IMG/VR virus record: IMGVR_UViG_3300030108_003783
Coordinates: 1 to 64,000 of that record
Length of the DNA: 64,000 bases
From: a virus
Strand: one strand, 5' to 3'
The position numbers and the translations under genes are program-made. Numbering within the stretch: the stretch's first letter is position 1; each line of letters starts with the position of its first letter. A model generated the notes under the pieces. The model did not search any database and had not been told where the DNA came from. It was given only the letters and a program-made list of their open reading frames with translations. This document shows, one piece after another, positions 29,506 through 48,062 of the stretch.

Positions 29506-29991
29506 ATGGCAAAATTAAATGAACAAGAACCAATAGACCAAGAAGCATTACCAGATAGAGTTAAAAGATCTAAATTACCAATTGATCCTCTTTATCCAAA
29601 ATCTAGATATGACTCACAAGATTATTTTGAAATAATAGGAGAAGATGTTCCAGATGATATTGTAACACCTGTAACAACTTTTATTCCTCCAACAGAGAAA
29701 GATTATGAAAAGGGATTTTTTAATAGATACTTTATAGCAAGGTACGATTCAAATTTTGCAACTGAAGTTTCAATGAAATATTTTACAAAAAAATTCTCAA
29801 AATTACCAGACGGTCTTTATTTGGGTACAAATATGAAATGGTACATAACTAATAATAATTTACCAGTATTAGATTCAATAAGAACTACTATAACAGCAGA
29901 ATCTGTAAATAGGCATAATACAGAAATAGAATCTAAAAGATTGCCGCAATTAAAAAATACTATAAAAGATTTTACTCAATTCTTTCGATAA
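29506..29991 (+). CDS. conserved structural protein, unknown
   Basis: A 161-residue protein with a Pro/Asp-rich start and a conserved-looking centre (IPPTEKDYEKGFFNRYFIAR, then MKYFTKKFSKLPDGLYLGT). It has GGAGG upstream and follows the hub gene by one base, so it is probably a baseplate or tail component. An early-type promoter overlaps its 3' end. Confidence 0.6.
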   Translation: MAKLNEQEPIDQEALPDRVKRSKLPIDPLYPKSRYDSQDYFEIIGEDVPDDIVTPVTTFIPPTEKDYEKGFFNRYFIARYDSNFATEVSMKYFTKKFSKLPDGLYLGTNMKWYITNNNLPVLDSIRTTITAESVNRHNTEIESKRLPQLKNTIKDFTQFFR

Positions 29992-30013
29992 GTCAAATAA
30001 ATTTCTTATATTA
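29983..30013 (+). promoter_or_regulatory. early/middle promoter variant: TTTCGATAAGTC ... TATATTA
   Basis: One base differs from the consensus upstream box; spacing to TATATTA is the same 20 bases. The ATG of the polA-like gene is 5 bases after the -7 box, so the RNA is probably leaderless. Confidence 0.65.
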
Positions 30014-30018
30014 GGAAT

Positions 30019-31047
30019 ATGAATATAAAACAGGTTACATTAGATAAAGAGAAAAAAGTGTGCGTTCATTCTTATATAAAGAATGGAAGGGTTATAGATT
30101 TAGATTCAATAAAAACATCAACTCATTTATTTTATCAAAGAATGTACTGGAATAGGCCAGATATTTTTGATATTATACCAAACTGCAAACATCGTGAATA
30201 TATAAATAGTTTAGATAAAAGCTTAGACAGTTTTGAATTATCAGAGTATGATATTAACATAGCACAAACTTACGAAAATCTGATTTTACCTTTATTTAAT
30301 AAAATAGAAGAAAATGGCTTATACACTAAAAATGGTTATGAACATTCCAAGTACAATTTATTTACTATTACTGGTAGACCATCAAATGCAAACAATGGTA
30401 TAAATTATGCCGCATTAAATAAAGCTGATGGCTCAAGGGAAAGGTTTACTAGTAGGTTTTCTAATGGCTTTTTATTAGAAATGGACTTTGATGCATATCA
30501 TATCAGATTGATTGCAGATTTAATAAATTATAAATTACCTGATTCTTCTGTTCATGAATACTTTGCAAAACAATTTTATGGTGTTACTTCTGTAACTAAA
30601 GAAGAATACGAACAATCTAAAGCAATGTCTTTTCAAGTTTTATATGGTGGTGTTCCAAAAGAATTGGAAGCAATAGAATATTTTAATAAAACTAAGCAGT
30701 ACATTTTTAAGCTTTGGGATAATTATAATTATAAGGGTTACATACAAACACCAGTATTCAATAGAAGGTTATATAAAAACAATCTGGAAAATATGAATCC
30801 TCAAAAGTTATTTAATTATTTAATACAAGCTTACGAAACTGAAAGGAACATTAAAGCAATAGAAAAAATTCATAATATCCTTAAAGGTTATAATTCTAAA
30901 TTAATCCTTTATACATACGATGCATTTTTATTTGATTGCGCAAAAGAAGAAATATCAATTATAAAAAATGAAATTGCAAACAATTTAGATTTTCCAGTTA
31001 AAATGCATGTAGGTAAGAACTACAATGATATGAAGCTTTTAACGTGA
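30019..31047 (+). CDS. family A DNA polymerase-like palm/fingers protein
   Basis: A 342-residue protein containing, in order, the landmarks of the Pol I polymerase domain: TGRPSN (118-123), motif A with D156 in LLEMDFDAYHIR, O-helix motif B KAMSFQVLYG (K201, F205, Y209-G210), GYIQTPVFNRR, FNYLIQ (Q270), and motif C as TYDAFLF (D301). In motif C the usual HDE is YDA, and the O-helix arginine is replaced by Tyr197. There is no exonuclease domain and the thumb is short. The phage also encodes a family B polymerase, so this is a second, possibly specialised or regulatory polymerase. Confidence 0.85.
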   Translation: MNIKQVTLDKEKKVCVHSYIKNGRVIDLDSIKTSTHLFYQRMYWNRPDIFDIIPNCKHREYINSLDKSLDSFELSEYDINIAQTYENLILPLFNKIEENGLYTKNGYEHSKYNLFTITGRPSNANNGINYAALNKADGSRERFTSRFSNGFLLEMDFDAYHIRLIADLINYKLPDSSVHEYFAKQFYGVTSVTKEEYEQSKAMSFQVLYGGVPKELEAIEYFNKTKQYIFKLWDNYNYKGYIQTPVFNRRLYKNNLENMNPQKLFNYLIQAYETERNIKAIEKIHNILKGYNSKLILYTYDAFLFDCAKEEISIIKNEIANNLDFPVKMHVGKNYNDMKLLT

Positions 31048-31087: not shown

Positions 31088-32230
31088 ATGAACATAAACT
31101 CTATAGTTAAAGAATGGGCTTGGCGAACAAATGATGGTATGCCTAATCCTAATGATAGAGATCATATAGAATTATTAGAAAATATACTATTAGCTCATAA
31201 GTACGATAGAGATTTTGTAGATCAATTCATTCATCAAATAGCACCATTAAATGAAGCAGCAATTAAAAATTCAAAAGTATTAGCTGCTATAAAAGCTAAG
31301 AATAAAAATGCAGCTTTTAAAAAGTTTTTAGGTAATTTACCTAGTGGTGATCCAGCAAGACAGATGAAAAATTATCTAGAAAAATTAGACGATAAAAAAG
31401 CTGAAGAATTTGCAGATATACTATACTCTTCTGCTAATCCTCCAAAATCAATTGGTGGTGGAGTACAAAGAGATATATTTAATATTGATGCAAAGGGAAT
31501 AGGTAAAGGTGAACTTTGGTTAGCAGTTATGACTAAGAACTCCGAGATACAAGGTGGAGGAGTTTCTTTCGATTTAAAAGCTGGCGGTAAAAAATACGAA
31601 GTAAAAGTATATGACACTTCTGCTTCTGCTGTAATTAGATTAGGAACTGAAGGAGCATTAGGATCTACAATATTTTGGCAAGAGATATTAGACACTTTAA
31701 AATTATTAGAAAAATTAGTTAAGTCTGTTAATATAAAGGATTACTTTGATAATGATTTTGCATCAGCAATAGATAAAATGATATCTAGAAAAGGTATGAC
31801 ATTGAAGGGAGAATTCAATAAAGCTGATATGAAAACGTATGAAACTTTCTATAGATTAGCAGAAGCTAAAACTAAAGTTGCTGAAGATGGTTTTAATAGA
31901 ATAGATTTAAGAGGGCCTAACACAAGACCTCAATCATTCACCATCAAACCAATACCTTCTAATATATCTGGTAACAGTATAAAAATAGAATTAGTAAAAG
32001 GTAACACTAAAGATACAGTTTTATCTAATATCATAACTGAATTAAGAAGATTAAAATACGTTAGACAACCTGGAGCTTTAGCAACTGACGTACAAAAATC
32101 TGTTGATAATGCAATTGCAAGTGGACCAGCTGATGCCTTCATAGTATTCAGACCAGGAAGAATATACGTTGGAAATAAATTTAAATTTGGTGTAATTTCT
32201 CAAGGTGGTATAAAGATTATTGAAAGGTAG
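31088..32230 (+). CDS. PD-(D/E)XK nuclease-like phage protein
   Basis: A 380-residue protein. The N-terminus (EWAWRTNDGMPNPNDRDH, then ending in APLNE-A at residue 56) resembles leaders of virion proteins and offers a gp21 site. The central segment GKGELWLAV, VSFDLKAGGKKYEVKV and IRLG gives the order E, D-x8-E-x-K expected for a restriction-endonuclease-like active site. The rest is helical and unassigned. It has a late promoter motif and strong SD. A DNA-processing enzyme carried in the virion is possible but unproven. Confidence 0.6.
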   Translation: MNINSIVKEWAWRTNDGMPNPNDRDHIELLENILLAHKYDRDFVDQFIHQIAPLNEAAIKNSKVLAAIKAKNKNAAFKKFLGNLPSGDPARQMKNYLEKLDDKKAEEFADILYSSANPPKSIGGGVQRDIFNIDAKGIGKGELWLAVMTKNSEIQGGGVSFDLKAGGKKYEVKVYDTSASAVIRLGTEGALGSTIFWQEILDTLKLLEKLVKSVNIKDYFDNDFASAIDKMISRKGMTLKGEFNKADMKTYETFYRLAEAKTKVAEDGFNRIDLRGPNTRPQSFTIKPIPSNISGNSIKIELVKGNTKDTVLSNIITELRRLKYVRQPGALATDVQKSVDNAIASGPADAFIVFRPGRIYVGNKFKFGVISQGGIKIIER

Positions 32231-32232
32231 AT

Positions 32233-32634
32233 ATGAGAACAAATTTATTATGCACATTTACTAATCCTAGAGATAAAAGAAAAACTATCGATTTAATTAT
32301 TGATAAGTATGATATATTGTACAATAAGATTTTTCTTTTAAAGAATGTAGATAATGATAGAGAACTTATGTGCACTTATAATATATCTATAGAAGAAAAT
32401 TATTCTGAACTGGAAAATACTATTTTGTTGCATAGAAAAAAACAAACAAATACTTTATATACTATTAACGCTTTAAATTCTTTAATAAAGATTTTAAACA
32501 ATGGTGTATTAGATACAACATACCAATTAGATTGGGAAAATTATAGAAATACAATGTTGTTAACTAATGAGGAAGGTTTAAAAAGAGTTGAAACTGAAGT
32601 AGAAGATATTATCTATATAAAAATAAAAAGGTAA
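32233..32634 (+). CDS. conserved phage protein (INALN motif), unknown
   Basis: A 133-residue protein with LLCTFTNPRDKRKTIDLI, then LMCTYNIS, ILLHRKKQTNTLYTINALN. These stretches look conserved in T4-like phages of marine origin, but no function is known to me. It begins 3 bases after the preceding stop, behind GAAAGG, and is probably co-transcribed with the PD-(D/E)XK gene. Confidence 0.65.
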   Translation: MRTNLLCTFTNPRDKRKTIDLIIDKYDILYNKIFLLKNVDNDRELMCTYNISIEENYSELENTILLHRKKQTNTLYTINALNSLIKILNNGVLDTTYQLDWENYRNTMLLTNEEGLKRVETEVEDIIYIKIKR

Positions 32635-33969: not shown

Positions 33970-34899
33970 ATGAAAAACAAAAATCTAACACTAGGATATG
34001 CATGTATCAATATGGAATTACGTAAAGACAAAATCTTTACTAATCGTCACATGCGTCAAAAAACGTTCGAAGCAAAAGGTATTGAATATGCTTCTGAACT
34101 TAATTTACTAAATGTCAAAGATCTTGTAAAAATTATACAATGGAATATTGACAATGATATTAAATTGTATCGTATGTCTTCAGATATATTTACATGGCAT
34201 TCTCATTACAATCTTACAGATTGCCCAGATTATCCTGAAATCAAACGCCATCTTGAAATTGCTGGTAAACTGGCAAGGGACAATGGTATTCGTCTTTCAG
34301 CTCACCCTGGTCAATACACTGTACTTGCATCTCCCAACGAAGACATTGTTGTCCGGGCAATTGATATCTTGGACAAAACTGCAATTGTAATGGATCTTAT
34401 GGGTATGCCAAAAACACCAGAATGCAAAATCAATATACATATCGGTGGTACTTACGACGACAAAAAAGCTACAATGGCTAGGTTCTGTAAAAATTTCAAA
34501 CGTATCATTCCATCTGCACAAGCTCGTCTCACAATAGAAAACGACGACAAAGCTTCAATGTATTCAGTATCGGATCTATATGAAGGTATATACAAAGTAA
34601 TTGGTATTCCAGTTGTATTCGATTATCATCACCACAGATTCTGTACTGGTGGTTTATCCGAAGCTGAAGCTTTACATCTTGCAGCTAAAACTTGGCCAAA
34701 AGATATTCGTCAATGTACTCATTATTCCGAATCTATGGCACTAATGGAAGGAGCTGAAGATAAACGTGAACAAGCTCATTCAAATTATATTTACAACGAA
34801 ATTAACACGCACGGTCTTTCTATCGATTGCATGGTGGAAGCAAAGATGAAAGAAAAAGCTGTTCAAAGGTATTATGATAAACATTTGGTTTTATCGTAA
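33970..34899 (+). CDS. uvsE: UV damage endonuclease (UvdE/UvsE family)
   Basis: A 309-residue TIM-barrel enzyme that nicks DNA 5' of UV photoproducts. Family landmarks: LGYACINMELR, YRMSSDIFTW, RLSAHPGQYTVLASP, INIHIGGTYDDK, LTIENDD, VVFDYHHHRF and a late CTHYSES, supplying the metal-binding His, Glu and Asp. Arginine codons differ from neighbours: about 11 of 15 are CGN, while most genes here use AGA, suggesting separate acquisition. It has no SD and is probably leaderless. Confidence 0.93.
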   Translation: MKNKNLTLGYACINMELRKDKIFTNRHMRQKTFEAKGIEYASELNLLNVKDLVKIIQWNIDNDIKLYRMSSDIFTWHSHYNLTDCPDYPEIKRHLEIAGKLARDNGIRLSAHPGQYTVLASPNEDIVVRAIDILDKTAIVMDLMGMPKTPECKINIHIGGTYDDKKATMARFCKNFKRIIPSAQARLTIENDDKASMYSVSDLYEGIYKVIGIPVVFDYHHHRFCTGGLSEAEALHLAAKTWPKDIRQCTHYSESMALMEGAEDKREQAHSNYIYNEINTHGLSIDCMVEAKMKEKAVQRYYDKHLVLS

Positions 34900-34952: not shown

Positions 34953-35717
34953 ATGGCAATTGATTTAGATGCTATCCGCAAGAAGCTTCAAGGCTTACAA
35001 ACAACGACGACAAGAACGTCAAATTTATGGAAACCAGAACCTGGTAAAAATGTAATTCGTATTGTACCTTATCAATTTAATAAGGACAATCCATTCCAAG
35101 AATTATTCTTTCACTATGGTTTAGGCAAAAGAAATTATTTATCACCTGTTACTTTTGGTGATGCAGACCCAATAGTTGAGTTTGCTGATAAACTAAAACA
35201 AACTGGTAACAGAGATGATTGGAAATTAGCTAAAGGGCTTACACCAAAAATGAGAACTTATGTTCCAGTTATAGTTAGAGGTCAAGAATCAGAAGGTGTT
35301 AAATTATGGGGCTTTGGTAAAACTGTTTATCAAGAACTATTAACATTTATAGCTGATCCTGATTATGGTGATATCACAGATGTTAAATCTGGTAGAGATA
35401 TTACAGTTACTTTTACTCCAGCTGAAGGAGGTGAAAGATATCCTAAAACTGCAATAATGGTTAAACCTAACCAAACACCTGCAACAGAGGATAAAACAAT
35501 AGCTGACAATATTATGAATGGTCAAGAAGACATTTTCAATATTTTCAAAAGAGTTTCTTATGAAGATTTAAAAGAAGCTTTAGAAAACTGGTTAAACCCT
35601 GAAAATGATGAAAATTCTAATGAAGTACCAGCAACTGATAAGAAAGAAGAAGTACCAGCTGGTGTTAAACAATCTGACGATATAGATTCAGCATTTGATG
35701 ATTTATTTAATAATTAG
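34953..35717 (+). CDS. gp32: single-stranded DNA-binding protein (gp32-like)
   Basis: A 254-residue protein with a basic N-terminus, central OB-fold region (NVIRIVPYQF, FHYGLGKRNYLSP, KLWGFGKTVYQEL) and an acidic tail ending DDIDSAFDDLFNN, used for protein contacts. It contains no cysteine, so the zinc site of T4 gp32 is missing. It coats replication and recombination intermediates with UvsX, whose gene follows after 10 bases. Strong AAGGAG; a repeated AU-rich leader suggests autoregulation. Confidence 0.9.
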   Translation: MAIDLDAIRKKLQGLQTTTTRTSNLWKPEPGKNVIRIVPYQFNKDNPFQELFFHYGLGKRNYLSPVTFGDADPIVEFADKLKQTGNRDDWKLAKGLTPKMRTYVPVIVRGQESEGVKLWGFGKTVYQELLTFIADPDYGDITDVKSGRDITVTFTPAEGGERYPKTAIMVKPNQTPATEDKTIADNIMNGQEDIFNIFKRVSYEDLKEALENWLNPENDENSNEVPATDKKEEVPAGVKQSDDIDSAFDDLFNN

Positions 35718-35727
35718 GAGATAATTT

Positions 35728-36876
35728 ATGGCAAGGAAAAGTAAAGCTCAAAAAGCAGCTATTGATTCTAGAGATGAACTTGCTGGAGTTATCGCTGACT
35801 CATTAAATAAGAAATTCAAGTCAATGAAAGTGGCTTATTTCTTAGATGGAGCGGAAGAGACACCAACAGATTTAACTGAATGGGTTTCTACTGGTTCATC
35901 ATTATTAGATCTTGCAATTTCAAATAGACCTCATGGGGGATTACCAGTAGGAAGGATTACAGAGCTAACTGGATTAGAAGCTTCTGGTAAATCTTTAATT
36001 GGTGCTCACTTATTAGCAAACACTCAAAAGCAAGGTGGACTAGCAGTTTACATTGATACAGAGAATGCTATGAATGAGGAATTTGCAAGAGCTATTGGTA
36101 TTGATATTTCTAAATTACTTTATGTACAACTCGAAGCTATCGAGGATATATTTGATGTAATTGAAAATATAATACTAAAGATCCGTGAATCGGATAATGA
36201 TAGATTAGTTACTATCGTAGTTGATTCAGTTGCAGCTGCAACAACCAAAGTTGAACAAGAAGCAGATTTTGAGAAAGATGGTTGGGCAACCTCTAAAGCT
36301 ATTATTATATCTAAAGCTATGAGAAAGGTTACTCAATTAATTGGTAGACAGAGAATCTGTTTGGTATTTACAAATCAATTGAGAGTTAGATTGGGTGTAT
36401 CATTTGGTGATCCTTATACTACCTCAGGTGGTAAAGCATTAGGATTCCATGCTTCATGTAGACTTAGGTTAAAAGCTGCTGGTCAAATAAAAGCTAAGAT
36501 TGATGGGAAAGAGCAAGTAGTTGGTATTAAAACTAAAGCTCAAGTTGTCAAGAATAGAATGGGACCACCATTAAGAACTGCAGAATTCCAAATCTATTTT
36601 GATAGAGGAATTGATGATTATGGTTCATGGTTACAAGTTATGAAAGACTATAACTTAGTCAAACAAGGTGGGTCTTGGTATACTTATATTGACCAAACAA
36701 CTGGTGAGGAAATCAAATTTATGTCTAAAGAATTTGAAGATAAAATCCTCTCCGATGAAACTAGGAAAGAACGTATTTACAATTCTATATGTAATGCGTT
36801 AACCATGTCTTACAAATCAGACGATATTGGTATTGATGATGTAGAGATTGGTAACGACGACGTTCCTATTAACTAA
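35728..36876 (+). CDS. uvsX: RecA-like recombinase (UvsX)
   Basis: A 382-residue RecA-family protein. LPVGRITELTGLEASGKSL gives Walker A at about 82-90; Walker B-type LVTIVVDSVAAAT, L2-type region and VFTNQLRVRLGVSFGDPYTTSGGKALGFHAS follow. It ends with an acidic tail (DDIGIDDVEIGNDDVP). It promotes strand exchange for recombination-dependent replication on gp32-coated DNA. SD is AGGAG, with the preceding gene 10 bases away. Confidence 0.95.
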   Translation: MARKSKAQKAAIDSRDELAGVIADSLNKKFKSMKVAYFLDGAEETPTDLTEWVSTGSSLLDLAISNRPHGGLPVGRITELTGLEASGKSLIGAHLLANTQKQGGLAVYIDTENAMNEEFARAIGIDISKLLYVQLEAIEDIFDVIENIILKIRESDNDRLVTIVVDSVAAATTKVEQEADFEKDGWATSKAIIISKAMRKVTQLIGRQRICLVFTNQLRVRLGVSFGDPYTTSGGKALGFHASCRLRLKAAGQIKAKIDGKEQVVGIKTKAQVVKNRMGPPLRTAEFQIYFDRGIDDYGSWLQVMKDYNLVKQGGSWYTYIDQTTGEEIKFMSKEFEDKILSDETRKERIYNSICNALTMSYKSDDIGIDDVEIGNDDVPIN

Positions 36877-37022: not shown

Positions 37023-38063
37023 ATGAAAAAATACTATAGCGAAATATTAAAGAATTTAAATGAAGATACTGAGCCTTTAAAGCTTAATGATAGAGTATTA
37101 TTAGTAGATGGCTTAAATACATTTATCAGAGCTTTTGTTATGAACCCATCAACTAATGAAGATGGTATTCATATTGGTGGTATCAAAGGGTTTATGTTGT
37201 CAATGGGTTATGCCATTAAAAATATTAAACCAACAAGAGTTATTGTTTGCTTTGATGGGGCTGGTGGTTCACAAAGACGTAGAAAGCTTCATCCTGAATA
37301 CAAACAAAACCGTAAAGTAAATAGAAGATTATTAAGGGCTGCTCATCAAGATCATTCAGATGAAGATAACAAGCTTGCAATGAAACATCAGCTACAAAGG
37401 TTATTAGAATATTTAAGCAATTGTCCTGTTACATTAGTATCTATTGATAAGATAGAAGCAGACGATTCTATTGCATATATAACAAAGCAAATATTAAAAA
37501 ATAGCAAATGCTTTATCATGTCTTCAGACAAAGACTTTTTACAATTGGTGGATAAAAGAGTTACAGTTTGGTCACCAACGAAAAAGCAATATTACTTTGA
37601 TGAAAACGTTAAAGAAGAGTTCGATTTAATACCGGAAAACTATATTTATTATAAATGTCTTTTAGGAGATAAAGGTGATAATGTTCCAGGTCTTTCTGGT
37701 TTAGGTCATAAAACGTTATATAAAAATTTACCAATATTATTTGGTCCAGATCCAATAACAATGGACGATATAATAGATTATGCTAAAACAAATGCATTAC
37801 AAACAAAAGCTTTAAAATTGATTGCTGATAATGTAGACCATTTAAATTTAAATTATCAATTAATGCAATTACATGAAACAGATATTTCTGGTTCTGCAAA
37901 AGAAAGATTACAAAATTTAGTTAAAGCTAAAATACCTTCTTTTGTCAAATACGATTTTATGAAAATGCTTTTAGAGGACAGGATGTGGATTGTTAAAAAT
38001 ATAGAATTTTGGATAAGAGATGTCTTCTTATCATTAGACACAAGGGGAAGGGATGATAAATAA
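37023..38063 (+). CDS. rnh: 5'-3' exonuclease / flap nuclease (T4 RNase H-like)
   Basis: A 346-residue FEN-type nuclease. Metal-binding motifs: LLVDGLNTFIRAF near residue 26, VIVCFDGAGGSQRRRKLHPEYK, IEADDSIAYI, IMSSDKDFLQL and LGDKGDNVPGLSGLGHKT (helix-hairpin-helix). It removes RNA primers and flaps during lagging-strand synthesis. It overlaps the helicase gene by 11 bases, forming an early replication operon. Confidence 0.92.
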   Translation: MKKYYSEILKNLNEDTEPLKLNDRVLLVDGLNTFIRAFVMNPSTNEDGIHIGGIKGFMLSMGYAIKNIKPTRVIVCFDGAGGSQRRRKLHPEYKQNRKVNRRLLRAAHQDHSDEDNKLAMKHQLQRLLEYLSNCPVTLVSIDKIEADDSIAYITKQILKNSKCFIMSSDKDFLQLVDKRVTVWSPTKKQYYFDENVKEEFDLIPENYIYYKCLLGDKGDNVPGLSGLGHKTLYKNLPILFGPDPITMDDIIDYAKTNALQTKALKLIADNVDHLNLNYQLMQLHETDISGSAKERLQNLVKAKIPSFVKYDFMKMLLEDRMWIVKNIEFWIRDVFLSLDTRGRDDK

Positions 38064-39396
38064 AATTTCAGATTTCGGTTATAACTTTCAAACAAAGTTA
38101 ATTGCAGCATTACTTACTGATAAAAACTTTCTGCAACAGATTTCAGATATACTTGATCACAAATACTTTGAATCAGAAGCAGCATCATTTTTAGTTAAAT
38201 GTATAAAAGATCATGTATCAGAATTTAAAGCTGCTCCAACAATGGAAGTTTTAAAGGTTAAAATAAAAGAACTAACAGATGAAGTTTTGGAAACATCTGT
38301 TGTTTCTACTTTAAAAGATTCAATGAGAAATGTTGAATCTACTGATTTGGAATTTATTAAAGAAGAATCTATTAAGTTTTGTAAAAATCAAAAATTAAAA
38401 GCTGCAATTGTTGAATCTGTTAATTTATTGCAAAGTGGAGAATTTGATGCAATCAAAACAAAAATAGATGAAGCAATGAAAGCCGGGGGTGATAGAAATA
38501 TTGGCCACGAATATAATAAAGAAATAGAAGATAGATATAAGGAATCTGTCCGTAATACAATAACAACTGGTTGGGAAGTTATAGACGATTTGGCAGATGG
38601 AGGATTAGGAAGTGGGGAGCTTGGTGTAATGGTTGCACCAGCTGGTATTGGTAAATCTTGGGCTTTAGCTAATGTTGGAGCTAATGCTGTTAAAGCTGGT
38701 AAAACCGTTTTGCATTATACTTTGGAATTAAATCAAGCTTATGTAGGATTAAGATATGATTCTATATTTACAGGCATTGCAGCTCAAGATTTAAAATATA
38801 ATTTAGACGATGTAAAGAAAAGGTTAAAACAAATACCTGGCGAGTTAGTTATTAAATATTTCCCAACAAAAGGTGCAACGGTTTTATCTCTTGGTGCTCA
38901 TATTGAAAAATGTAAAATACAAGGAAAGAGTCCAGATTTAATTATAGTTGATTATGCAGATTTATTAAGAGGTAATGGAAGAGAAGTTAGACATGAGCTT
39001 GGTAATATTTACGAAGATTTAAGAGGATTAGCTGGTGAATATGAAATACCGATTTGGACTGCATCTCAAGCAAATCGTTCTGCATTACAAGAAGATGTTA
39101 TACAAGCAGACAAGATTGCAGAATCATATTCTAAAATAATGACTGCTGATTTTGTGGTTTCATTGTCAAGAAAGATTGAAGATAAGGCAGCTGGAACTGG
39201 AAGATGGCATGTTATTAAAAATAGGTTTGGTCCAGATGGTATTACTTTACCTTCTAAAATGAATGCATCAAATGGTCAAATCGATATTTATGATGGAGCA
39301 ACTATTCAAGGTCAAGCTGCTCAAGAGGATATCAATAACAACTCCGAATATTTAAGAAAAATGTTAGGAAATAAATTTAAAGAATTAAATACATAG
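38053..39396 (+). CDS. gp41: replicative DNA helicase (gp41, DnaB-like)
   Basis: A 447-residue DnaB-family helicase. An N-terminal helical domain (LLTDKNFLQQISDILDHKYF) is followed by the RecA-like motor with Walker A APAGIGKS at about 195-202, the H1a-like HYTLELNQ, Walker B LIIVDYADLLRG and IWTASQANRS. It is the hexameric fork helicase. The primase partner (gp61) is not in the window. A terminator follows. Confidence 0.93.
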   Translation: MINKISDFGYNFQTKLIAALLTDKNFLQQISDILDHKYFESEAASFLVKCIKDHVSEFKAAPTMEVLKVKIKELTDEVLETSVVSTLKDSMRNVESTDLEFIKEESIKFCKNQKLKAAIVESVNLLQSGEFDAIKTKIDEAMKAGGDRNIGHEYNKEIEDRYKESVRNTITTGWEVIDDLADGGLGSGELGVMVAPAGIGKSWALANVGANAVKAGKTVLHYTLELNQAYVGLRYDSIFTGIAAQDLKYNLDDVKKRLKQIPGELVIKYFPTKGATVLSLGAHIEKCKIQGKSPDLIIVDYADLLRGNGREVRHELGNIYEDLRGLAGEYEIPIWTASQANRSALQEDVIQADKIAESYSKIMTADFVVSLSRKIEDKAAGTGRWHVIKNRFGPDGITLPSKMNASNGQIDIYDGATIQGQAAQEDINNNSEYLRKMLGNKFKELNT

Positions 39397-43659: not shown

Positions 43660-46095
43660 ATGAAAGTATCAAAAATAACATCAGTATTTAATAAAGGTAA
43701 ATATGATATATATTTATCTGGCTATGACGACAATGGTAAAAATGTAAAGAAAATTGAAAAGTTCGATGATTATTTCTTTTATGAAGCAGAAAACATTTCA
43801 GATATAGATGATTACCCAGGATTAAAATGTATCCCTGATAAAATCTATAAATCTGTTGAAGGTAAAGACTTATTAAAAGTTCATTATACTTCTGTTAAAA
43901 ATAAACATAAATTGCAAAAGAAATTTATCAAACGTACATATGAAGCAGATTTAAAACCTGAATTTAAATATATGCTTGATCAAAAATTGGAGTGGTCTTC
44001 AAAACGTCACTTCATGTATTTGGATATTGAAACATGGTATGATCCAAACGATTCATCTCAAAACAGACCTGAAACACCTAATATGCCAATTACTTCGATT
44101 GTTGCATATTCAAGTGAAGCTGATAAATATTTTGTATTTTCATGGCATCCTGAAAAAACTAAAAAGTTTGATGAACCAAAATTTGTTGACAAAGAAAACG
44201 TAACATACGTATTTTGTAAAACGGAACAAGAAGTATTATTAGGTTTTATAAACTTGATTAAAACAAGCAATCCAGATATTCTTTCTGGTTGGTATTCGTC
44301 AGGTTATGATATGCCTTATATATTAAATCGTTCTAAAAGATTAAATATTCCTATTGAAGAGATATCTGTTGTAAAAGATTATTACATCAGAAAGCGTGGT
44401 GATTATTGGAAATTTCAAATAAAAGGTTTAGACCATATAGATATGATGGAAGCTTTACAAGATTTAAAATATAATTTACCAAACTGGAAATTAGCAACAG
44501 CAGCTAAAGTTATTTTAAAAGATGAAGAATTTGGAAAGCTTACTGATACTACTTGGAAGAATTGGATTGATGATTACGAAGGCTTCTTAAAATATGCTGT
44601 TAGGGATGTTGAAATTTTAAAAGAAATAAATGAAAAAGTTCAAGTATTTGATTTATATATTTCAATGCAACAAATTGCAAACCTTGAAACATTAAATTTA
44701 GTATTCTTTAAATCAATGCTAATTGATAATTACATGTGCAAGGAATTTCATAATGAAACTATATTCCCAACAAGATATACTAAAAAGCGTAGAGACTATC
44801 AAGGTGCTATTGTTATTGAACCAACTGAACCGGGTTTAAATGAAAATGTAACTGTTATGGATTATACTTCACTATATCCAACAACTGTAATGGCATTTAA
44901 CATTTCACCTGAAACTTTTATATGCTCTCAAGAACAGTGCGAAAAAGCTGGTATGGATATCGAAGATGTAGTCAAGCAATTGAAAGCTGATAATATAGAT
45001 TACGTAGATACTGGATATTCTAAGGATCTTTTCGGAAGGAGGTATTTGTTTTATGGTCATACTCACAAAGTTGGTATTCTACCTCAAATACTTAAAAAGG
45101 TATTTGTACAAAGGGTTGAAATTAACCGGGCATTAAATGCAGGTGAAATTCCAGATGATCAATATGAAGCAATGCATAAAAGACAATGGTCATATAAAAT
45201 TATTATGAACAGTGCTTATGGTGCAATGGGATATTCACTTTTCAGAATGTGTTTATTTGAATGTGCTGATTCAACTACTTATTTTGCAAGGCAAGCTTTA
45301 AAATTTGGTTTAGTACATTTTAATAATAAAGGTCATAAACCGTTATATGCTGATACTGATTCTGTATTTATTAAATCTAATGGCAAAGATGAAAATGGTA
45401 TGAAAGGTATGCAAAAAGAATATAATGATTCTTTATATAATAATTTCGTTAAAAAGCATAATACAGGTCCAGTTAAAGATTACATGTTTTTAGATTTAAA
45501 ATTTGAATATTATCTTGATAGAATATACTTCGGTGATGTAAAGAAAAGATATTATGGTATTGTAAAAGGTTCTGGTAAAAAGGTTATTAGGGGTATGAAT
45601 ATTATTCGTAAAGAAACACCAGAGTATTTAAAGAAAAGGTTAAATGATATGGCTGAGTTAGCTGTTACTAATAAGTTAACATTGGATTGGGTATTAGATT
45701 TACGTAAAGAAGTTGAATCCCAGCCATATCAAAAAATAGGTATGGCCAAAGGCTTTGGTAAACCTTTTAATACTTATACTAAAACAATGCCTCAACATGT
45801 AAAAGCTGCTGTTTGGGCTAATGAAATATTAGGTACAGAATTAACAAATTTAGATAATCCATATTTATTTTATGTAAAATCTAAAATCGAAGATGATAAA
45901 AAAGTTAAAGAAAGGCATAAAGCTATTTGTATTAATGAAGATGATTTACATTTAATTGATACTAATAAAGATAAATTTGAAATTGATTACGATACTTTAT
46001 TTTATAAGCAATGTATTGTTCCTATTGAAGAATTTAAACAAATGCCATATATAGTAGATTTACTTGAAAAATATAATGAAACTATCAAGTCTTAA
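43660..46095 (+). CDS. gp43: family B DNA polymerase (gp43-like)
   Basis: An 811-residue replicative polymerase. Exonuclease I motif MYLDIET at about 119-125, ExoII region DILSGWYSSGYDMPYILNR, ExoIII YAVRDVEILKE. Polymerase motif A MDYTSLYPTTVMAFNISPE near 400, motif B KIIMNSAYGAMGYS, motif C YADTDSVF near 563. It is somewhat shorter than T4 gp43 (898 residues). It is the main replicase; clamp and loader genes lie outside the window. Confidence 0.96.
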   Translation: MKVSKITSVFNKGKYDIYLSGYDDNGKNVKKIEKFDDYFFYEAENISDIDDYPGLKCIPDKIYKSVEGKDLLKVHYTSVKNKHKLQKKFIKRTYEADLKPEFKYMLDQKLEWSSKRHFMYLDIETWYDPNDSSQNRPETPNMPITSIVAYSSEADKYFVFSWHPEKTKKFDEPKFVDKENVTYVFCKTEQEVLLGFINLIKTSNPDILSGWYSSGYDMPYILNRSKRLNIPIEEISVVKDYYIRKRGDYWKFQIKGLDHIDMMEALQDLKYNLPNWKLATAAKVILKDEEFGKLTDTTWKNWIDDYEGFLKYAVRDVEILKEINEKVQVFDLYISMQQIANLETLNLVFFKSMLIDNYMCKEFHNETIFPTRYTKKRRDYQGAIVIEPTEPGLNENVTVMDYTSLYPTTVMAFNISPETFICSQEQCEKAGMDIEDVVKQLKADNIDYVDTGYSKDLFGRRYLFYGHTHKVGILPQILKKVFVQRVEINRALNAGEIPDDQYEAMHKRQWSYKIIMNSAYGAMGYSLFRMCLFECADSTTYFARQALKFGLVHFNNKGHKPLYADTDSVFIKSNGKDENGMKGMQKEYNDSLYNNFVKKHNTGPVKDYMFLDLKFEYYLDRIYFGDVKKRYYGIVKGSGKKVIRGMNIIRKETPEYLKKRLNDMAELAVTNKLTLDWVLDLRKEVESQPYQKIGMAKGFGKPFNTYTKTMPQHVKAAVWANEILGTELTNLDNPYLFYVKSKIEDDKKVKERHKAICINEDDLHLIDTNKDKFEIDYDTLFYKQCIVPIEEFKQMPYIVDLLEKYNETIKS

Positions 46096-46115: not shown

Positions 46116-46156
46116 TTATACAAAATAAGTTATAAAATTAATAAATGGAGGTTAAC

Positions 46157-48062
<1,906 letters not shown>

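Follow-up and report, generated by a model that had tools for sequence, protein, structure and literature searches.

Why would a T4-like phage that already encodes a replicase carry a second DNA polymerase? T4-type replication is the textbook system with one DNA polymerase, and T4 manages with gp43 plus RNase H. The question is raised by one gene in the window, a 64,000-nucleotide stretch of viral DNA (positions 1 to 64,000 of IMG/VR record IMGVR_UViG_3300030108_003783). The original prediction had described this gene as a minimal family A polymerase beside a family B replicase. Its coordinates and length were exact, the open reading frame being a complete gene of 342 amino acids, and a gp43-type family B polymerase is indeed present at 43660–46095, but at a distance of 12.6 kb the two are not neighbours. 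We call the protein mini-PolA.

30019–31047, + strand: mini-PolA, family A DNA polymerase core (thumb, palm and fingers) without a 3'-5' exonuclease domain (from profile, fold and residues)

Profile, fold and catalytic residues all place mini-PolA in family A, as had been claimed. The Pfam DNA_pol_A profile (PF00476) matched it at 3.2e-12 and 46.5 bits, above the curated cut-off of 34.3, and phrog_17 matched at 3e-14. An AlphaFold model built on 41 relatives (mean pLDDT 92, pTM 0.88) showed the right-hand Pol I fold when compared with the PDB by Foldseek, with Pol theta, Bst Pol I, mycobacterial Pol1 and Taq Pol I as best matches (E 6e-15 to 1e-13, query TM 0.50–0.59); the rmsd of these matches is large because the alignments span domains absent from the query. 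The fingers and thumb of mini-PolA are shortened, not extended. In the model, D156 is found where the motif A strand (151–157) ends, and D301 where strands 294–299 and 302–307 meet in a turn. Read from these strand positions in a confident model, the predicted placement of the two residues is that of the Pol I palm, on which the original prediction had staked its assignment. A profile–profile comparison of mini-PolA with T7 DNA polymerase gave no significant match, scanning with the LR756508 protein added no relatives, and a literature search found no description of the family.

Is the active site intact? We mapped mini-PolA residues onto Klenow by profile alignment (223 columns) and counted conservation among 237 relatives (145 at 90% non-redundancy), using the rows that cover each position. 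The following segments were recognized:

30364–30387, + strand: TITGRPSN segment, R120 corresponding to Pol I R668 (alignment, counts)
30478–30507, + strand: motif A, EMDFDAYHIR, D156 corresponding to Pol I D705 and H161 replacing the steric-gate residue E710 (alignment, counts)
30607–30648, + strand: motif B (O-helix), YEQSKAMSFQVLYG, Y197 replacing R754, with K201, F205 and Y209 corresponding to K758, F762 and Y766
30739–30768, + strand: GYIQTPVFNR(R) segment (sequence)
30811–30828, + strand: FNYLIQ segment, N266 and Q270 corresponding to N845 and Q849 (alignment, counts)
30913–30936, + strand: motif C, TYDAFLFD, Y300 replacing H881, D301 corresponding to D882 and A302 replacing E883

Motifs A, B and C and the FNxxIQ segment are thus all present, as originally listed (D156; K201, F205 and Y209; Y300-D301-A302; FNYLIQ), and so is the segment given there as GYxxTxxxRR, whose correct spacing is GYxxTxxxxRR. 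The catalytic aspartates are kept throughout (D156 in 237/237 relatives, D301 in 235/235), K201 is found in 236 of 237 (the remaining row being unreadable), and F205, Y209 and Q270 are invariant. The unusual motif C, whose conservation it had been proposed to check, is a family trait: Y300 is present in 234 of 235 relatives, the single exception being Phe, and position 302 is Ala or Ser in all 235 covering relatives, motif C always reading Y/F-D-[A/S]. This change was real, but larger departures from Pol I had been missed, namely His at the Glu710 position in 237/237 relatives (H161) and Tyr at the Arg754 position in 230/236 (Y197). Some mini-PolA loci had been collected with patterns that include motif A, and we repeated the count on 38 copies reached solely via a neighbouring gene: D156, H161, Y300 and D301 were present in 38/38. 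The conservation therefore does not result from searching by motif. All four residues persist even in the most divergent copy, that of Microcystis phage Mel-JY01, at 27% identity. Because the two aspartates are universal, even at 27% identity, the family looks catalytic, with a nucleotide-binding site that appears consistently remodelled. Estimates of dN/dS between close relatives (0.09–0.43 in the short clade, 0.11–0.16 in one long clade) indicate constraint, but are rough, with dS up to 1.2.

What might the substitutions do? R754 binds the dNTP triphosphate in Pol I, and its loss together with that of the E710 gate could mean that mini-PolA activity is weak or different. It is our conjecture that His161 and Tyr197 alter nucleotide selection or lower fidelity. 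In Pol I, Glu710 is the residue that blocks ribonucleotides (PMC9324360). In the Pol of Thermus phage Tt72, changing the equivalent of E710 to Ala leaves 35% of the activity, whereas changing either catalytic Asp leaves 4% (PMC9324360). The same enzyme is active with D615-S616 in motif C, and its S616A variant retains 76% activity (PMC9324360); loss of the E883 carboxylate is thus not fatal.

The original prediction also held that mini-PolA has no exonuclease domain. This is true of the window protein; most relatives, however, are 417–459 amino acids long, with some 90–100 additional N-terminal residues, and retain a degenerate exonuclease-like domain there. The model of one long relative (447 residues) aligns with Klenow from end to end (TM 0.78 to 1kfd), and the extra segment is predicted to adopt a shortened Klenow exonuclease-like fold. 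Compared by eye on the predicted first strand, long relatives carry IPxYSD, VPxxLN, LLQMYSD or EVIxxN where Pol I has the metal-binding D-x-E. An active DEDD 3'-5' exonuclease is therefore found in neither form, the domain being absent from the window protein and D-x-E from the long relatives. The 341–342-residue forms make up one clade of five (support 100/100), which argues that the window's lineage lost the exonuclease remnant once.

To which set of genes does mini-PolA belong? Its surroundings are as follows:

29983–30013, + strand: early/replication-class promoter of mini-PolA, TTTCGATAAGTCAAATAAATTTCTTATATTA (class element 29990–30013; -10 TATATT at 30007–30012; from gene-start comparison)
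32233–32634, + strand: 133-amino-acid partner candidate, with the same distribution as mini-PolA across the 16 genomes tested
33970–34899, + strand: UvdE-type UV endonuclease, early promoter class, not conserved with mini-PolA
34953–35717, + strand: gp32-type single-stranded DNA-binding protein
35728–36876, + strand: UvsX-type recombinase
37023–38063, + strand: Pol I-type 5'-3' exonuclease (5'-nuclease), early promoter class, proposed functional partner
38053–39396, + strand: gp41/DnaB-type replicative helicase
43660–46095, + strand: gp43-type family B replicase with exonuclease domain

The order baseplate, mini-PolA, 31088 homologue, 32233 homologue, gp32, UvsX, 5'-3' exonuclease, gp41 holds at almost every locus. 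It recurs from baseplate to gp41 in LR756508 (a 484-kb phage) and in Microcystis phage Mel-JY01, and from mini-PolA onwards in Flavobacterium phage immuto; the gp32-UvsX-5'-nuclease-gp41 synteny with mini-PolA spans phages of marine, freshwater, Flavobacterium and Microcystis origin. Mini-PolA belongs to the core genome of a large clade of phages. As side observations, the gene at 31088–32230, between mini-PolA and 32233, varies from 380 to 780 amino acids and has a late-type promoter, a stretch of it (GVSFDLKAGGKKYEVK) looks like a PD-(D/E)XK nuclease motif, and a phage GroES and GroEL pair lies directly downstream of gp43 (46145–48062).

Mini-PolA was proposed to have its own early promoter, which proved real. 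Comparison of gene starts revealed a promoter class with the consensus TTTGGATAAGTCnAAAAAATTTnTTATATTW; at up to 5 mismatches, 17 copies in the genome fit and an outlier at 128960 matches weakly, each of them on the + strand, against 0–2 copies in simulated genomes (none at up to 4 mismatches). Copies lie at window positions 29990, 33504, 33941, 36980, 41855, 43614, 48303 and 49494, with further ones up to genome position 114421, and precede mini-PolA, gp43, the 5'-3' exonuclease, UvdE, thymidylate kinase and the primase (114421); the gp43 copy resembles that of mini-PolA most closely. The class was not found before the baseplate genes that precede mini-PolA. Among relatives, 30/40 have a -10-like element in front of mini-PolA, compared with 0/14, 0/24, 1/20 and 0/8 for the four preceding baseplate-region genes. 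Mini-PolA starts the replication cluster, and the baseplate genes upstream are late-type. The next gene, 31088, has a different, late-type element (GATATTTATAT).

Several further features of these promoters emerged. The mini-PolA mRNA may be leaderless because TATATT ends six bases before the ATG, and a similar spacing at several other early-class genes suggests leaderless mRNAs there too. The TTTG ... TATATTT layout resembles Bacteroidota promoters and may point to the host. The late-type element (GATATTTATA; window 6151, 13348, 14060, 16867, 31054 and others) has 12 genome copies on the + strand and one on the - strand, several of them upstream of structural genes, and a similar one precedes GroES at 46145. 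A simple sigma-70 scan gave no signal (36 sites, 37.9 expected).

Is mini-PolA the replicase? We examined 11 long or complete mini-PolA genomes, some of them partial, with T4, P-SSM2, HTVC008M, RM378 and phiM12 as controls; mini-PolA was not found in any of these five. All 11 genomes encode a separate replicase, DNA_pol_B in ten and a full-length PolA in one (immuto), and mini-PolA is the main or only polymerase in none. The gp43 position of immuto, next to GroES/GroEL (L085:37854-40187), holds a 777-amino-acid PolA with an exonuclease domain, which argues that mini-PolA is not a spare replicase. Moreover, mini-PolA is kept although the replicase has been swapped, so its role is separate from the type of replicase. 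In the T4-like genome of immuto itself, a family A replicase thus appears to have taken the place of a family B one by non-orthologous replacement. In LR756508.1, family B polymerase matches fall in two frames (260623–262308 and 266583–266900) about 4.3 kb apart, from a gene that is either split or interrupted by an insertion.

Which repair and priming functions accompany mini-PolA? A strong Pol I-type 5'-nuclease (PF02739, 1e-31 to 1e-37) was found in 11/11 mini-PolA genomes, whereas the five control phages had a T4-RNase-H-like match (1e-13 to 1e-19) or none; in the window it is encoded in mini-PolA's own cluster. The window's genome further encodes an ATP-dependent DNA ligase (89329–90642) and a gp61-type primase (114490–115350, profile phrog_47) with its own early promoter; phrog_47 also finds the primase in two other long IMG/VR genomes and in 3/3 database phages tested, whereas searching mini-PolA phages directly with T4 gp61 yielded no significant match. 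Mini-PolA is therefore not a substitute for a missing primase; this idea, prompted by the gene cluster and the missing steric gate, was dropped. UvdE is encoded in only three of the 11 genomes, and a UvdE excision pathway was therefore rejected as the main role.

The 133-amino-acid protein occurs in the same 11 of 16 genomes as mini-PolA, and in exactly six of 50,697 phage records, all six among the best mini-PolA matches. Conversely, 37/37 loci fetched through its gene, counting those with at least 3 kb upstream of it, carry mini-PolA. In Flavobacteriaceae contigs (relatives among Bacteroidota phages), the two genes touch or overlap. The protein gave no Pfam, PHROG or PDB match worth naming and no fold recognizable from sequence. 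The co-occurrence may reflect functional coupling or merely shared ancestry.

What, then, does mini-PolA do? We think it probable that it is a dedicated non-proofreading polymerase for gap filling or primer replacement, working with the 5'-nuclease and ligase as a "split Pol I". Mini-PolA would do the patch-synthesis share of cellular Pol I, with gp43 (or the full-length PolA of immuto phages) acting as replicase, and the two Pol I activities would fall to two genes of a single replication cluster. The separate 5'-nuclease would remove RNA primers or damaged flaps, mini-PolA would fill the resulting gap by two-metal catalysis via D156 and D301, and the phage ligase would seal it, while gp32, UvsX and gp41 would handle the DNA. 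Judging from its conserved residues, mini-PolA is presumably active as a DNA polymerase, and we infer that it acts on gaps or nicks, in partnership with the 5'-nuclease. Location in the replication cluster does not prove gap filling.

Alternatively, mini-PolA could be a translesion or recombination polymerase resembling Pol theta or Pol nu: a family A enzyme with a dead exonuclease, able to replicate across lesions or to elongate badly paired primers that UvsX has made. Pol nu has a pseudo-exonuclease domain and bypasses lesions (PMC5472330); the mini-PolA family has a degenerate exonuclease domain and an altered active site, counts Pol theta and Pol nu among its best structural matches, and has UvsX downstream and UvdE in 3/11 genomes. 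However, no lesion-bypass insertions are visible in its shortened fingers and thumb, the steric-gate and R754 changes alone do not imply bypass, and UvdE is not conserved with mini-PolA, and we regard this role as possible but unlikely. The invariant His161, at the position that blocks ribonucleotides in Pol I (PMC9324360), raises another prospect, that an opened sugar gate lets mini-PolA use NTPs to make or extend primers, with the gp41 helicase in the same cluster. This seems improbable given the gp61-type primase of the window's genome and of relatives, the bulk of His itself, and F205 and Y209, which are as in DNA polymerases. Broader, and in our view distinctly doubtful, is the proposal that by swapping the steric-gate Glu for His, and usually Arg754 for Tyr, the lineage came to select nucleotides differently, for instance by tolerating ribonucleotides or modified dNTPs, and acts with the 133-amino-acid partner in a step conserved among the phages.

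The changed equivalents of R754, H881 and E883 and the compact size would also suit a regulator or scaffold of Pol I descent that has lost catalysis. The invariance of D156 and D301 across the 237 relatives makes such a protein very unlikely; the equivalents of K758, F762, Y766 and Q849 are kept as well (145 non-redundant relatives), and E883 is dispensable in phage Tt72 Pol A (PMC9324360). That mini-PolA is the decaying remnant of a former replicase is scarcely credible: the proofreading domain is degenerate or lost, but dN/dS is well below 1, the gene is retained in 37/37 loci and the catalytic core is intact. Of the four roles first suggested for mini-PolA, gap filling or repair is thus best supported and translesion synthesis is possible, while primer synthesis is weakened by the primase and a non-catalytic regulator by the aspartates, invariant down to 27% identity.

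How does mini-PolA compare with known enzymes? It shares with Pol I/Klenow (PF00476) the fold and the equivalents of R668, D705, K758, F762, Y766, N845, Q849 and D882, and its long relatives keep the position of the exonuclease-like domain. It differs in four active-site positions (Glu710 to His, Arg754 to Tyr in 230/236, His881 to Tyr, Glu883 to Ala/Ser), two of them contacting substrate, in its shortened fingers and thumb, in a degenerate or absent exonuclease without proofreading, in having no fused 5'-nuclease, and in not being the replicase. None of the Pol I enzymes in the comparison shows the signature D-x-x-x-[YF]-H, Y-x3-K-x3-F-x3-Y-G, Y-D-[AS]. Pol theta and Pol nu, high-ranking structural matches, are likewise family A enzymes with an inactive exonuclease, accessory to another replicase, but their gate residue differs; the Pol theta helicase domain and the long inserts of eukaryotic Pol theta and Pol nu are absent from mini-PolA. 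The phage PolA replicases (T7 gp5, Herelleviridae, Tt72 Pol) are also phage-encoded family A enzymes lying beside replication genes, and motif C of Tt72 is also D-S, but they are replicases with an exonuclease and a Glu gate, whereas mini-PolA coexists with a separate replicase. Two database proteins with the same synteny are members of the family, gene 1 of Flavobacterium phage immuto (QQO91919, "DNA polymerase family A") and WWT39333 of Microcystis phage Mel-JY01 (hypothetical protein); 27–33% identical to the window protein, they are annotated by domain name only or not at all.

T4-like phages of a large, abundant aquatic clade thus have a second DNA polymerase in their core genome. If active, mini-PolA would offer, in only 342 residues, a Pol I core that naturally lacks an exonuclease and has an altered sugar gate; it could serve as a tool enzyme and would also test what Glu710 and Arg754 are needed for. 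Its presence raises the question of how these phages divide synthesis between a replicase and a repair polymerase.
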